Shown piece by piece: positions 55,447 through 63,454 of a stretch of 64,000 nt of DNA (positions are counted from its first letter, which is position 1; each line of letters begins with the position of its first letter). The DNA comes from Chthonomonas sp. (GTDB taxonomy: Bacteria > Armatimonadota > Fimbriimonadia > Fimbriimonadales > Fimbriimonadaceae), in the NCBI GenBank assembly GCA_016788115.1, contig JAEURR010000005.1:186001-250000 (forward strand). Direction: 5' to 3'. Below the pieces are notes generated by a model. It was not told the origin of the DNA and made no database searches. It was given only the letters and a program-made list of their open reading frames with translations. The translations under genes were made by a program, and so were the position numbers.

Positions 55447-56094
55447 ATGAAAATCAAACTGATTTCAATTACATCCGTGCTGACATTACTGGCCACCGTC
55501 TCCGCGTCGGCACACCATATGTGGCTGCAACTTGACGCGAAGGGCAAGACGGGTCAGGTCTTTGTCGCGGATGACCCGACCAAGCCCGCAGTCCCCATGA
55601 AGGTAAAGGGCGGCAGCCAAACCGCGCTGCAACGGTGGAACATTGGCAAGCTAGCGGCGAGCGAGAACGGCAATTCGCTCCTCGCGGAGGCACTCAGGCC
55701 TTTCGCAGCGGTCCAGCTTACTTACGGTATCCACGGCCCGGACTTGATCACCTGGTACGCCAAGGGCTGCGCAACCGTCCGAGACGCATCAACCACGCTC
55801 GGTCTGGATTACGAGTTCACTGCCAGACGAGTGGGCACGAACGTGGTGTTTCATCTCACCGGGAACAAGAAGCCGGTGCCAGACTGCCGCGTCGAGGTGT
55901 TCGGAGAGGGCATCCCGCTCGACAAGTTCTGGCGCACGGACAAGAAAGGAAACGTGACCGTCCCGTTCCCGAAAGGGGGCCGCATCTATGCGGCGGCAGA
56001 GCCAAAGGTGGACAAGGTCGGAACGTTCAAAGGCAAACAGTACAAGGGGCGACTTGAAATGCCGTGCATCAACTTCGTCGTCCCAAAATCGTGA
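55447..56094 (+). CDS. Secreted DUF4198-like protein
   Basis: A 215-residue protein with a signal peptide ending SASA, then AHHMWLQLDAKGKTGQVFV. The His-His pair directly after the cleavage site is the DUF4198 (NikM-like) hallmark and could bind a metal. A second beta-sandwich follows (about 130-210, DCRVEVFGEGIPLDKFWRTD). A periplasmic metal-binding role is possible. No transporter is next to it. The start is the ATG that begins the signal peptide. Confidence 0.72.
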   Translation: MKIKLISITSVLTLLATVSASAHHMWLQLDAKGKTGQVFVADDPTKPAVPMKVKGGSQTALQRWNIGKLAASENGNSLLAEALRPFAAVQLTYGIHGPDLITWYAKGCATVRDASTTLGLDYEFTARRVGTNVVFHLTGNKKPVPDCRVEVFGEGIPLDKFWRTDKKGNVTVPFPKGGRIYAAAEPKVDKVGTFKGKQYKGRLEMPCINFVVPKS

Positions 56095-56152
56095 GATCGC
56101 CAAGCGTACGTTCGCGTTGACAGCCAGATGGCTCCTCTGCCAGCATGGAGAG

Positions 56153-56647
56153 ATGCTGCGCTTGCCCATTGTTTGCGTCCTTGCGGGCGTCGTCTCGGTT
56201 CTGTCGGGGCACCAGCAGAACCCGACCCCCGCCGAATCCGATCCGGTGGGCAACACCCTGCGCGCAACAGGACTCATCCACACCGATATCGGGGGCTTCT
56301 ACAAGCTCCGGTACGACTACTCGGACACCAAGCGGCACCAGGACTCATACATTCGGAAACGAGTGGATACATACGAGAGCCTGAGCGTTCAGGAGTCGTA
56401 CTCGCTGTGCTATGAGAGTAAAACCGCGCCGGATACGGAGCTGCTGCGAAAAGTCTTCCAGAAGAGCTTTAGCATCGGGGGTTTGATCTTGGAAGAGCCT
56501 TCGAAGGACCAAGAGCTTTGGCGTATTCGTTTCAAGATCGACGTGCCAACCAACACGACCGCAGAACGGCTCAAAACGTATTTGCAGTATGTGGGCGGTA
56601 CAGCGGACGGGATCGAGAAAGAACTCGGCGCGGAGGACAAACTATGA
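56153..56647 (+). CDS. Small secreted protein, paralog of the next gene
   Basis: A 164-residue protein with a signal peptide ending near SGHQQN. The mature part (LRATGLIHTDIGGFYKLRYDY, in part) has the layout of YbjN/CesT-type chaperone-like folds: two helices around four strands, with LLRKVFQKSFSIGG and LWRIRFKIDVP. It overlaps the next gene (ATGA) and the two proteins share the ALxATGL-x(5) opening and the YxxRF/RYNVKFD strand. Function unknown. Confidence 0.65.
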   Translation: MLRLPIVCVLAGVVSVLSGHQQNPTPAESDPVGNTLRATGLIHTDIGGFYKLRYDYSDTKRHQDSYIRKRVDTYESLSVQESYSLCYESKTAPDTELLRKVFQKSFSIGGLILEEPSKDQELWRIRFKIDVPTNTTAERLKTYLQYVGGTADGIEKELGAEDKL

Positions 56648-57156
56648 AGTTCCTCGGTCTGTTAACCACGCTCTCGATACTGACAAGCTCCGCACTCCAA
56701 TCGGACGAAGCGGTCAAGGATCAAGCCAAGAAGGCGCTCGAGGCCACGGGGCTCAAATTCGAGACGACCGCCAGCGGGAAGAACTACTCGATCGTCTTCA
56801 CGCATCCCGAGAACCGGCAGCATACGGTCTACATGAGCTTGACCCCGAACCGCCCTGGCAAGCTGATCACCTACAACCTATACACCCAGGTCTGGTACAG
56901 CAAAGACGCGCCCGACGATGCCCTCATGCGCAAGATTCTGGGAAGAACCAAGAAGCTTGGAGCGTTTTACCTATTCAAGGATTCCCATGACACGTGGACC
57001 TTGCGCTACAACGTCAAGTTCGACGCGACCGATATGCCGGAAATCCCCAAGGCCGAAGACAAACTCGTCAAAGCGTTGAAAGACTGCATTTTCTTCGTGA
57101 ACGCAGTTGGCGAAGAGACGGACAAGGAACTCAACGGCGCAGCGGATATTCAGTGA
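56644..57156 (+). CDS. Small secreted protein, paralog of the preceding gene
   Basis: A 170-residue protein with a signal peptide ending near SSALQ. It opens KKALEATGLKFETTASGKNY and contains LMRKILGRTKKLGAFYLF and WTLRYNVKFDATDMPE, aligning with the preceding gene product over its length. YbjN-like fold by appearance only. The 184 bases after it hold no gene; they end at the convergent PEP-CTERM gene. Confidence 0.65.
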   Translation: MKFLGLLTTLSILTSSALQSDEAVKDQAKKALEATGLKFETTASGKNYSIVFTHPENRQHTVYMSLTPNRPGKLITYNLYTQVWYSKDAPDDALMRKILGRTKKLGAFYLFKDSHDTWTLRYNVKFDATDMPEIPKAEDKLVKALKDCIFFVNAVGEETDKELNGAADIQ

Positions 57157-58269: not shown

Positions 58270-59955
58270 CTAGAAGTAATACCGGAGGTCCCACTCACGC
58301 TGGAATGCCTGTCCTGTAGTTTTGTCCGCGATGTAGTCCAGAGTCTTGGCGACGAGTCGGTACGTTGTCCCGTTGGGCCCCGTGAGGAATATCTCACCAG
58401 TTCCCCCGTAAATCTCACTGGTGAAGACCAGAATCTTGAGCATGTCCCCCTTCTTAGCTGTGAAGGTAAGCGGACCGCGGTTCCCTCGAATGGCTCCATC
58501 TGGGTCGGCGTAAATTTCGACACCGTTCACCTGCACAACCAATTTGGACCGAACCTCGAACGGGCCGAAAGCAGCTCCGCCGACCGGTTGGTTCCCGGAG
58601 AGCACGAACGTCCCTCCCAACGGTTGCGGCTTGCTGGACCGAGCACCCACCTTGACCGATACGCTGTCCGTCCCCTTGGATCCCTGCGCGGTAATGGTTG
58701 TGCTGGACCATGTGAGGACTGTTAAGGGTACACCCGCAGAGCTTGTGGTCACGTTCTGCAGGACCGTGTCCTTCGTTTCGCCAAACTGACCCTCGATGGT
58801 GATGACCCCCGTCGTGGCATCCATCGTCGCATCGCGAATAATCGGCTTGATTGCGCCCAGTGTCTCGTTCCCCGGAACGAACTTCAGCTTAGCATTGGTC
58901 GCCCGGGAGGTGCTGTAAACCTCGCGGGTCTGGGGGCACTTGCTCGTGGCCATGTCCGCGATGAGCTCCTTGATATCGAGTGACTGCTTTTCGCCTGGGT
59001 TCGCGGGTTTGGGTTCCAAGTTGTACAGCCCTAGCGTGCGATCCAGCAGATAGTAGGCTGCATAGATCGCGGACAGATCCTCGGTCGAGTCGTCCCAACC
59101 CATGTAGACGCCCGCACCGGCCGAGGTGCAAGCCTTAGCAACATCTGGATTACCGCTATGGCAGGCGTTGAAGAACACCACAGAGTTCTTGCCGAACGAG
59201 ATGTACTTGCTGATGAACGATGGCGTCATGCCATAGTGCTTCTCAGCAGGCTTGCCCGAGTCGTTCGCCCCGACGACGTAGACCAGTTCTTCCGCGCTCA
59301 GCATGCTCTGGTAGGTCTGGTCCAACTCCTTGGTCACTTTGGTAGCTGTCCAGATGGCCGTCACCTCGTCTCCTGATTTGAGCGTGACATTCATGCCGTG
59401 GGCATCGAGATAAACGAAACCATCGTCTTTTAAAGCTTTGAATTCCTCGACAGTCCCCTTCTGGATAGGGCCAGCCGGTTCCATCCCCGCGGCGACAAGG
59501 GTCGGGTGCATCGCGACCGCCGGATGCTGGAATAGGGTGCCCATGGTGTCGATGAGCCGGAACTTCCCGGGGATCAGGGATGCACCACCAAGCCGCCCCC
59601 TCGGCGCGCTTACCGGGTAACTCGCCATCTCGGACGCAGGTTGACGGTTGTTGGCGAAGATGATGATGCGACCATCCGTAAACCGACCGTACGCACAGTG
59701 ATCCGGAGTGACTCCCGATTCGGAGAACTCGGGCATCGTGGCCATTTTCGCTGCCAGCTGCGTCGATACTTCGGCTGGCGTGGACGTGGTCAGCGAAGCC
59801 TGAAGCGCCTCCAACGTGTCCATGGCTGCAAAGCGAGTTTCGCTCGCCAAAGTCTCTGCGGGCGGCTGTCCCCCCGATCCACCGCAACCTACGATTGCGA
59901 GGATGCCGTAAATCAACGCCAGCAGTAACAAAGCCCAGTACTTACGCTTACTCAT
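58270..59955 (-). CDS. Lipoprotein with caspase-like (clan CD) peptidase domain
   Basis: A 561-residue lipoprotein (lipobox IVGC, Cys24). Residues about 60-330 form a domain with the two clan CD signatures: hydrophobic strand then His-Gly (VYLDAHG, His186) and hydrophobic strand then Ala-Cys (VVFFNACHSG, Cys265), as in caspase-like, gingipain and CHAT proteases. An IPT/TIG-like beta domain follows at about 375-440 and a C-terminal beta sandwich at 445-561. Lipidation places the protease outside the cytoplasm, unlike most bacterial caspase-like proteins. A BTAD-type activator gene is divergent from it. Substrate and activation unknown. Confidence 0.75.
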   Translation of the reverse strand: MSKRKYWALLLLALIYGILAIVGCGGSGGQPPAETLASETRFAAMDTLEALQASLTTSTPAEVSTQLAAKMATMPEFSESGVTPDHCAYGRFTDGRIIIFANNRQPASEMASYPVSAPRGRLGGASLIPGKFRLIDTMGTLFQHPAVAMHPTLVAAGMEPAGPIQKGTVEEFKALKDDGFVYLDAHGMNVTLKSGDEVTAIWTATKVTKELDQTYQSMLSAEELVYVVGANDSGKPAEKHYGMTPSFISKYISFGKNSVVFFNACHSGNPDVAKACTSAGAGVYMGWDDSTEDLSAIYAAYYLLDRTLGLYNLEPKPANPGEKQSLDIKELIADMATSKCPQTREVYSTSRATNAKLKFVPGNETLGAIKPIIRDATMDATTGVITIEGQFGETKDTVLQNVTTSSAGVPLTVLTWSSTTITAQGSKGTDSVSVKVGARSSKPQPLGGTFVLSGNQPVGGAAFGPFEVRSKLVVQVNGVEIYADPDGAIRGNRGPLTFTAKKGDMLKILVFTSEIYGGTGEIFLTGPNGTTYRLVAKTLDYIADKTTGQAFQREWDLRYYF

Positions 59956-60073
59956 TGTCTTCTCACTTCAATTCACCCCCTACTATAGGTCAGGATCGCA
60001 AATTTATCGTAAACTAGTCGGATACTGTCTCGATGTATTGCATCGGAGAAACGAATGCCGACTGGGCACCCCG

Positions 60074-61825
60074 ATGAAGCTCACACTATTTGGTCAGTTT
60101 CGGATAGAAGGCGGGGCAGAACCGATTCGCCTTTCGGCTGCCAGAAGGCTGATTGCGCTCCTGTGCCTGCGGCCTGGCACGACCTGGGATCGAGCCCGCA
60201 TTGCCTCGCATGTTTGGCCAGCGACCGACGGTCCCGGCGCTCGGGAGCGTCTGCGCACAACGCTGGCGAGCGCACGCCGCGCCCTAGGGGACAACGTTTC
60301 CTGGGAGGGCGGACGCAATTCGCTGAGGCTGGTCCCGGCCGATTTTCAGGTGGATCTGTGGGAGGCTCAGGCCGAATGGCGTCGTGCCGGACTGGCTCCC
60401 GACGCGAGCGCTGAGTTTGAAGCGCTCTCCCGTCTGAGTGATCTCACCTCCGGAGTGCTATTGCCGGAGATGCCCGAGTTCTTATCGCATGAGCGCGAGG
60501 AATGGTGTCGGCGCACGGTCGAGGCGCTGCTGCGGCTGGCGACCATCGAGCAGGAGCGAGAGAACCTGGAGAGCGCCGCGCGATTCCTTGAGCGAAGCTT
60601 GTCGCTATCCCCCTACGATGAGCGCGCATGGACGGGCCTGATTCGAGTGCAGGCGCGGTTGGGCCAACATGTCGAAGTTTGCGATCGGTTCGCCAGGGCC
60701 CGTCAGCAGTTGCGGAATGCGCTGGGTTCTGATTTCAGTTCTTCGCTTCGTCAGCTTGCCCAGCAGGCAAGACGCGGCGATCATTCCGCCAGCAGTCTGT
60801 CCGCGGAGCAGATAGAAATGATCGCGAGAACGATCTCCCGTCAGATCGAATCGGCTCCGCTACGGGCGGCGGAGTTTCTGGGCTCGGAGGAGTTTCGTCT
60901 GGAGGTGTTTCAGTCTCCAGTCAAGGCGGCCGACCTCTTGGAACGGGTGCTTGCATGCACCACCGGCGGCGCACCAGCCCGCATGCAATGCGCTGTCTAC
61001 GCGATGATGGCGTACACCCTCTCCGGGAGCGATGCACGTATTCTGGCCCTGGGCCAAGAAGTTGCCAACTTTGACTCCGATCCCACCCGATTGAGAGCGG
61101 CCGAGACCATGCGCGCGGGAGCATATCTGAACCGGGGACAGTTCGTTCCAGCACTCGTCAGCTATGAAAGAGCCCTTACGCACGCCATTGCGGTGGGCAA
61201 CATCCCAGGCATCGACTTGGTGATGGCCCAGCGCGCCGTGATCGAATGGGAACTCGGCAAAGCCACAGAGACTCTAGCTGTGCTGACTGAGATCGAGCAT
61301 CGCCTCGGCCAGTACGATGAACATAATGCGCGCGTGGGTCGCGCGACTCTCAACGGCTACATTGGTCTCGTACACCTTTACGATGGCGAGACAGCGGCCG
61401 CGAAGAAGTGCCTTGAGCGATGCACTGCTCTGGCCCACGATGCCGGCCACGCGTCTGCCGCTGACCTCATGATGCCCGCCCTGGGGCTGTGTCAGATCCT
61501 GCTTGGAAACTTCGTGGACGGCGTGGATCAACTAAGAAAGGGTCTGGCTCGAATTCATCGGCTCAAATCCGACAGGCGAACCTTGCGGGCCATTGACTAC
61601 TGTGCCTTTGGTCTCGTTCATTTGGGTCGCGCGGAAGAGGCGATGGCGCTTCTGAACCAAAGTGACCACCTGAGGCGAAGAGCGAATATTCCCAACTCGC
61701 CGATCCACCAAAGCTACGGCGACCAGCTTCGTGCGTCCTGCGGCGAGGCCCAGCCAATCCCAATTCTTGAAGAGGAGCAGTCCGTCCGCGAACTGGTCGC
61801 TAAGGCATTGGCAATGCTGTCTTAG
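60074..61825 (+). CDS. BTAD (SARP-like) transcriptional activator with TPR region
   Basis: A 583-residue protein. Residues about 1-95 are an OmpR-like winged helix with the SARP opening MKLTLFGQFRIEGG. The bacterial transcriptional activator domain follows at about 100-245 (ERSLSLSPYDERAWTGLIRVQARLG in part), then helical TPR-like repeats to the end. There is no AAA/NB-ARC domain. It shares a divergent, AT-rich promoter region with the caspase-like lipoprotein gene and may control it. The start follows the domain register. An out-of-frame ATG with a good ribosome site (GGAGAAACG) precedes it by 19 bases. Confidence 0.83.
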   Translation: MKLTLFGQFRIEGGAEPIRLSAARRLIALLCLRPGTTWDRARIASHVWPATDGPGARERLRTTLASARRALGDNVSWEGGRNSLRLVPADFQVDLWEAQAEWRRAGLAPDASAEFEALSRLSDLTSGVLLPEMPEFLSHEREEWCRRTVEALLRLATIEQERENLESAARFLERSLSLSPYDERAWTGLIRVQARLGQHVEVCDRFARARQQLRNALGSDFSSSLRQLAQQARRGDHSASSLSAEQIEMIARTISRQIESAPLRAAEFLGSEEFRLEVFQSPVKAADLLERVLACTTGGAPARMQCAVYAMMAYTLSGSDARILALGQEVANFDSDPTRLRAAETMRAGAYLNRGQFVPALVSYERALTHAIAVGNIPGIDLVMAQRAVIEWELGKATETLAVLTEIEHRLGQYDEHNARVGRATLNGYIGLVHLYDGETAAAKKCLERCTALAHDAGHASAADLMMPALGLCQILLGNFVDGVDQLRKGLARIHRLKSDRRTLRAIDYCAFGLVHLGRAEEAMALLNQSDHLRRRANIPNSPIHQSYGDQLRASCGEAQPIPILEEEQSVRELVAKALAMLS

Positions 61826-62183: not shown

Positions 62184-62292
62184 CTAGCTATGCCGCTAAG
62201 TGCAAAGATGGCTAGCGCTAGGAACCTCGAGGAGGGTACCGTGCGAGAGAATAAGAAACTTGGCCTCATATAGGAGGCCTCTTCTGGCATCG

Positions 62293-62979
62293 ATGAAGTT
62301 CGAACTTCGAAAGACGGCGCGAGGCCTGAGCGATGATGAGTTGCTGGAAGATCTCCGGCGTGTTGCCCGCAAGCTTGGCCGAGAGACGGTAACTATCTCT
62401 GACTACACCGAGCATGGACTCGGTCACGCAACGACCATTCAGCGGCGCTTTCGCTCGTGGTTCAAGGCACTGGAGAATGCTGGCCTTAAGCCCAGTCGAT
62501 CCCACATTGGAGTATCTGAGGACGACCTTTTCGAGAACCTTCGGGCTGTTTGGGTGTCACTCGGACGGCAGCCGAGCTACGGTGAAATCAATGCCCCACT
62601 GTCGGCGTACTCCGCCGGGACATATGCGAACCGATTCGGCAGCTGGTCACAGGCCCTTCTGCAATTCGTTGAATGGGCCAACGCTGATGAAGCCGCGGAC
62701 CAAGATGAATTTCACATCGGAGCAGAAAGCCTGCGGAACGCAAAAGCCCAACCTCGTAGAACCAAACGAGAGATCAGCGAGCGGATGAGATTTCGCATCT
62801 TGGTTAGAGACGGCTTCAAATGCAACGCGTGTGGCGCAAGTCCGCTACAGAGCCCTGGCACAGAGCTGCACGTTGACCACATTGTGCCTTGGTCAAAGGG
62901 TGGTGAGACAGTTCCAGAGAACTTGGCCACAAAGTGCTCCAGATGCAATCTCGGGAAAGGTAACGCTTTTGAGGTCTAA
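62293..62979 (+). CDS. HNH endonuclease with two homing-endonuclease-associated repeats
   Basis: A 228-residue protein. Two repeats of about 55 residues come first (LSDDELLEDLRRVARKLGRE and VSEDDLFENLRAVWVSLGRQ at their starts, FRSWFKALENAGL and FGSWSQALLQFVEW at their ends). These DNA-binding repeats occur in homing-type HNH nucleases. The nuclease end has CNAC (Cys177, Cys180), LHVDHIVP (Asp195, His196), PENLATKCSRCN (Asn210, Cys215, Cys218). An AGGAGG at 62272-62277 is 15 bases from this ATG but six from an in-frame CTG at 62284, so the start may be upstream. It lies beside an integrase remnant and a tRNA, so it was probably acquired. Confidence 0.85.
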   Translation: MKFELRKTARGLSDDELLEDLRRVARKLGRETVTISDYTEHGLGHATTIQRRFRSWFKALENAGLKPSRSHIGVSEDDLFENLRAVWVSLGRQPSYGEINAPLSAYSAGTYANRFGSWSQALLQFVEWANADEAADQDEFHIGAESLRNAKAQPRRTKREISERMRFRILVRDGFKCNACGASPLQSPGTELHVDHIVPWSKGGETVPENLATKCSRCNLGKGNAFEV

Positions 62980-63378: not shown

Positions 63379-63454
63379 TGGTGGAGATAACGGGACTCGA
63401 ACCCGTGACCTGTTCGTTGCGAACGAACCGCTCTCCCAGCTGAGCTATATCCCC
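63379..63454 (-). tRNA. tRNA-Ala (anticodon CGC)
   Basis: A 76-base tRNA with all four stems: acceptor GGGGATA / TATCTCC including the G3-U70 pair that marks alanine tRNAs, D stem GCTC / GAGC, anticodon stem GTTCG / CGAAC around loop TTCGCAA, and T stem ACGGG / CCCGT around TTCGAGT. The CCA end is encoded. Confidence 0.97.

Follow-up and report, generated by a model that had tools for sequence, protein, structure and literature searches.

A predicted lipid-anchored clan CD protease family of Armatimonadota and its recurrent pairing with SARP-type regulators

Interest in clan CD is wide because the clan includes the caspases, separase and the CHAT defence proteases, the last being cytoplasmic proteins found within defence systems. 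By definition, the catalytic His and the catalytic Cys of a clan CD peptidase each follow a strand (PMC4357240). Exported enzymes of this clan are already known, among them the gingipains, clostripain and some metacaspases (PMC3501461, PMC4357240); for the metacaspases export has been predicted, and in a survey of 671 prokaryotic members, 142 were placeable, of which 98 were assigned to the membrane and 30 were extracellular (PMC3501461). The original prediction for the locus described here had it that bacterial caspase-like proteases are mostly cytoplasmic, which overstates the case, as gingipains and clostripain are secreted and many of the placeable metacaspases were assigned to the membrane or the cell exterior (PMC3501461). 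On the regulatory side, 11-bp direct repeats are the classical binding site of SARP regulators (PMC10972967).

The window, by which we mean the whole 64,000-nucleotide stretch analysed (C5:186001-250000), comes from a genome of 2.4 Mb and contains the divergent genes P0001 and P0002 (Table 1), which are separated by 118 bp if P0002 starts at ATG 60074 (583 aa), a start that is likely to be the correct one over TTG 60038. P0001 is without a paralogue in its own genome. Several other features lie close by. A tandem pair of genes (55988-56647 and 56518-57156) encodes small, probably secreted proteins with 24% mutual identity and no Pfam match, and P0002 is directly followed by a gene for an HNH protein with homing-endonuclease-associated repeats (62200-62979), beyond which there is a tRNA gene (63382-63454, minus strand). 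The genome (G000) encodes 41 PEP-CTERM proteins above the cut-off, and the gene for one of them is located just downstream of P0001.

Table 1. Features of the P0001-P0002 locus, in window coordinates
Feature	Coordinates	Strand	Basis
P0001, 561-aa clan CD (caspase-like) lipoprotein gene	58270..59955	-	ORF and predicted fold
Signal peptide and lipobox, residues 1-24	59884..59955	-	Sequence
Lipobox Cys24 codon	59884-59886	-	Lipobox LAIVGC
N-terminal domain (N-domain), residues 38-104, helix-helix-three strands	59644..59844	-	AlphaFold2 model
Disordered linker, residues 105-127, possible processing region	59575..59643	-	pLDDT <50
Predicted catalytic domain, residues 128-337, caspase/haemoglobinase fold	58945..59574	-	Predicted structure
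His186 codon, after strand 180-184	59398..59400	-	Conserved in 43/46 homologues
Cys265 codon, after strand 259-263	59161..59163	-	Conserved in 43/46 homologues
IPT/TIG (Ig-like) domain, residues 368-449	58609..58854	-	Structural match
C-terminal beta-rich region, residues 450-561, low pLDDT	58273..58608	-	AlphaFold2 model
Three 11-bp direct repeats, GATCGCAAATT TATCGTAAACT AGTCGGATACT, presumed SARP operator, third copy weak	59994..60026		Orthologue upstream comparison
P0002, 583-aa SARP-type regulator gene	60074..61825	+	ORF and domain matches
P0002 parts: winged helix ~1-92, BTAD 93-231, TPR repeats to ~530			

P0001 begins as bacterial lipoproteins do, with a signal peptide that ends in a lipobox Cys; this column is conserved in 41 of 45 aligned homologues, and a gene for signal peptidase II (LspA) was found in the source genome. 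Lipid attachment and a membrane location are predicted from the sequence. The N-domain that follows gives a confident model when taken by itself (pLDDT 85.8), and across 291 genomes of the phylum it is restricted to the P0001 family, one lone copy (in G027) excepted. No solved structure matched it with Z >5.5, and its identification as a known prodomain or inhibitor was rejected on these scores. Beyond the catalytic domain, an IPT/TIG-like and a beta-sandwich domain had been proposed, of which the former stands: for residues 368-449 the structural match is the TIG domain of an amylase/CGTase (1qho), with Z 10.8 and 32% identity, and Pfam TIG matched 3 of 17 homologues, P0001 itself not being among them. 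The final beta-sandwich is at most a candidate, the model of the last 112 residues (450-561) having a pLDDT of about 22-67; a related C-terminal region is carried by L101.

Seven sequences went into the AlphaFold2 model of P0001. It shows high confidence in the N-domain and in the greater part of the catalytic core (residues 160-300 are mostly at pLDDT 80-96), and it has the alpha/beta core of clan CD (caspase/haemoglobinase). In the structure comparison (VIA), SAVED-CHAT came out on top (Z 12.7, 2.8 A over 175 residues), followed by the DdvA domain (Z 12.3 over 168 residues), the Craspase TPR-CHAT (Z 11.7-11.2), RgpB (Z 11.2 over the 233 residues of its catalytic plus Ig domain, rmsd 9.0), separase (Z 10.8-11.1) and metacaspases (Z 9.3-9.8), and the Foldseek and VIA matches also include legumain and GPI transamidase. 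Save for TIG-domain matches and DdvA, the top structural matches are clan CD proteins. The naming of a single nearest clan CD family, such as gingipain C25, was dropped because the scores tie, those for CHAT, DdvA, RgpB and separase all lying within about 2 Z units. A Pfam search of P0001 (E up to 1) returned nothing, CHAT, Peptidase_C14 and Peptidase_C25 included, and these three were likewise unmatched in 17 homologues (E up to 0.1); with NCBIfam giving sub-threshold matches only, the catalytic domain went unrecognised by Pfam, NCBIfam and PADLOC alike.

The lipobox, His186 and Cys265 are all present in P0001 where the original prediction had placed them, and the two putative catalytic residues each follow a strand of the model, as the clan definition has it. 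Just four columns are invariant among 17 diverse sequences and His186 and Cys265 are two of these, which puts the proposed clan CD context far beyond chance; the predicted fold, proposed as a check on the assignment, agrees with it. Of the 46 aligned homologues that span this part, 43 have both residues, so the invariance that had been expected of them holds with three informative exceptions, L078, L079 and L091, in which His and Cys are gone together. The tree makes these losses two separate events, one in L078/L079 (Leu/Met in place of His/Cys) and one in L091 (Tyr/Ser), the latter replacement being known from pseudo-orthocaspases (PMC6426788). Close homologue pairs show dN/dS values of about 0.06-0.15, indicating purifying selection, inactive members included: the dyad-less pair L078/L079 is still under purifying selection at about 0.1. 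The family is real, and protease activity is predicted for it from the modelled fold.

The exceptions deserve a remark of their own. The L091 protein (L091:7752-9977, in G056) combines its Tyr/Ser dyad with a twin-arginine lipoprotein signal and parallels the cyanobacterial pseudo-orthocaspases. The dyad-less genes of L078 (L078:4649-10066) and L079 have, two genes away, a regulator of SARP type that includes an NB-ARC/AAA part, and at both loci a PEP-CTERM F5/8-domain protein stands between the two.

About 50 homologues of P0001 were found, in genomes of the phylum Armatimonadota and, scattered, outside it; 13 of 101 near relatives, the source genome counted, carry one, and both of the other genomes of the same genus are without a family member. 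The profile search of 291 phylum genomes listed 49 genomes, some of these matches covering the lipobox or TIG region only, and about 35 of the 291 have real family members. Among named records there are six family loci, several on contigs already among the surveyed genomes; all six came from the alignment-based contig scan, the scan by P0001 alone returning no relatives. A Variovorax paradoxus homologue (696 aa) conserves the lipobox, the His and the Cys, and a 2.5-Mb Variovorax plasmid is the single case of plasmid carriage; a search for phage carriage of the family gave no match. In the tree the window protein pairs with a homologue from a different family of the phylum (support 87/88), and its occurrence in this genome is accordingly put down to loss, transfer or a combination of the two. 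Broken copies occur in G176, G025 and G099, and neighbours are unrelated at most protease loci. One record, L102 (JADZEW010000026.1), is labelled as a Methanoregulaceae archaeon and its homologue is the same as that of the bacterial G013; it is probably a mislabelled or mixed MAG. We left L100 out of the family because only its lipobox and C-terminal part fit the family profile; the lipoprotein encoded at this locus (L100:7729-11824, in G164) is 898 aa long and has a twin-arginine-like signal, and its gene is divergent from that of a SARP-TPR regulator of 450 aa. In the open-access literature we found no description of the P0001 lipoprotein family.

P0002 has the wHTH-plus-BTAD architecture of a SARP/BTAD regulator, followed by TPR repeats (BTAD, 38.5 bits against a cut-off of 22.1; Trans_reg_C, E 0.001 and 19.5 bits, under its cut-off of 26.2). 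No ATPase domain was matched in Pfam and NCBIfam searches, and the divergent SARP/BTAD regulator without an ATPase that had been proposed was thereby confirmed. Only two strong BTAD proteins are encoded in the source genome, P0002 included, and P0002-like proteins are common in the taxonomic family (58 of 85 genomes). Its orthologues in G001 (44%), G005 (39%) and G023 (35%) all have neighbours other than the protease, that of G001 adjoining a codirectional 511-aa gene, and no shared synteny around P0002 was found in these genomes, so the exact P0001-P0002 pair is not conserved. At L124:7439-9956 (G005) the P0002 orthologue, preceded by the same 11-bp operator, is divergent from a gene for a PEP-CTERM secreted protein, a case suggesting that this regulator lineage may swap partners.

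The conserved gene linkage that had been suggested thus fails for the P0002 lineage but holds for a second SARP-TPR lineage (457-469 aa), which has strong matches in 4 of 85 genomes and adjoins a family protease in all four, divergently in G005, G023 and G031 and tail to tail in G059. The proteins of the three divergent cases are about 70% identical, and within four genes no other gene is common to all three loci. As the tree separates the protease clade of this second lineage from the window protein, the SARP pairing arose at least twice. By a crude Poisson estimate, about 0.04 adjacent SARP cases are expected among 26 loci versus five seen; collapsed by descent there are two (P about 8e-4), including the window case, from which the question arose. 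The pairing with SARP-type regulators is thus recurrent.

The motif of the repeats between P0001 and P0002 also precedes the P0002 orthologues of G001 (CCCGTAAATTT-ATCGCAAA) and G005 (ATCGCAAATCT-ATCGTGAA), and in the window and both of these genomes it is found some 45-80 bp before the regulator gene. Compared with shuffles, the 11-bp repeat alone is weakly beyond chance (p 0.03 in G000, 0.06 in G005), and it is therefore the recurrence that carries the case for an operator. The genome scan gave a single exact pattern match (59994-60026) and none with one or two mismatches; the pattern having been derived from these same sites, the exact match was expected and the absence of others is what is informative, and P0002 looks like a local, one-site regulator. 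Between the genes of the other SARP pairs there is no 11-bp repeat beyond chance, and scans for sigma-70 promoters and terminators gave chance-level results only. Because the site is near both starts (38 bp to that of P0001, 47 bp to that of P0002), P0001, P0002 or both could respond. The gene upstream of the regulator in G001 is codirectional with it, an argument for autoregulation being the more ancient role, and the operator-like repeats could serve P0002 autoregulation alone.

Taking together what was computed for the pair (the predicted fold, dyad conservation, export signal, operator-like repeat and the uniqueness of that repeat in the genome), we consider it probable, although well short of certain, that P0001 is an exported, lipid-anchored clan CD protease restrained as a precursor, and that P0002 binds the repeats and controls itself and possibly P0001. 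P0001 would act as a cysteine protease through His186 and Cys265, anchored by its lipid on the outer side of either the cytoplasmic or the outer membrane. It would most likely be made in a restrained form, for which analogy suggests a role of the N-domain, become active once outside the cytoplasm, and cleave peptide or protein substrates at the cell surface. P0002 would most likely bind the repeats within the 118 bp that the two genes share and control its own gene, and may also act on P0001. More doubtful is a generalisation to a recurrent module in which the TPR part of a dedicated one-site SARP reads a cytoplasmic signal and sets a surface caspase-like protease, held as a precursor by its N-domain, in action.

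That P0001 and P0002 are unrelated neighbours, an orphan protease beside a purely self-regulating P0002, is a possibility we take seriously while leaning away from it: P0002 orthologues are not beside the protease and the operator also precedes the regulator where the opposite flank differs, but such an accident fits poorly with a SARP neighbour that arose at least twice independently, and in excess of the Poisson expectation even after the five cases are collapsed to two. The clan CD fold might instead be an extracytoplasmic binding or sensing module, with catalysis secondary or self-directed. DdvA, a transmembrane regulator, is the second-best structural match, and three homologues are without the dyad, with L078/L079 nevertheless under selection and L091 resembling pseudo-orthocaspases (PMC6426788); this reading is unlikely, however, as 93% of homologues retain the dyad while overall identity is down to about 25%, which would be difficult to account for if catalysis played no part.

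Two further proposals fare worse. The wealth of PEP-CTERM proteins in the genome, one of them encoded next to P0001, and the presence of GPI transamidase and legumain among the fold matches would suit a surface transpeptidase or sortase-like processor of PEP-CTERM or other exported proteins, but the surroundings of the family show no enrichment in PEP-CTERM genes (5/190 vs 8/503, p 0.36), and we regard this role as very improbable. Least credible is a part in a defence or cell-death system like those of CHAT proteases or orthocaspases, for which the nearness of the SAVED-CHAT and Craspase folds and the patchy distribution would speak: PADLOC matched neither P0001 nor P0002, the neighbours tested include no defence genes, and P0001 is predicted to be exported.

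Under the favoured reading, an exported protease next to a SARP, clan CD gains a sizeable uncatalogued family that is located outside the cytoplasm, has an N-domain of its own and has lost the catalytic pair more than once. With just one operator-like site, it can be tested directly and cheaply whether SARPs, which are known from antibiotic clusters, also govern a protease at the cell surface.

Set against known systems, P0001 is like gingipain R (RgpB, MEROPS C25) in its clan CD fold, its predicted export and its prodomain-catalytic-Ig order, the N-domain coming first in P0001; it differs in the N-terminal lipid anchor, a different N-domain, 9% identity and a catalytic part without a Pfam match. 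With CHAT proteases (SAVED-CHAT, Csx29/TPR-CHAT) it shares the His-Gly and Cys motifs and the best structural score, whereas a Pfam CHAT match and defence neighbours are lacking. DdvA of Myxococcus xanthus (8rot, 8rw5), a transmembrane regulator, has a domain matching P0001, but DdvA is an anti-sigma factor and its anti-sigma part was not found in P0001. Prokaryotic metacaspases/orthocaspases (C14B) share the fold, although P0001 has no Pfam Peptidase_C14 match. P0002 resembles SARP regulators of the RedD, CdaR and AfsR type in its wHTH-BTAD arrangement and in the 11-bp direct repeats that serve as their sites (PMC10972967), and differs from them in that the TPR part comes straight after the BTAD, without an ATPase, and in its place beside a protease gene rather than in an antibiotic cluster. 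Exported clan CD enzymes are thus the known part of this locus, and the lipoprotein family, its N-domain and the SARP pairing, all absent from the libraries searched, are the new one.
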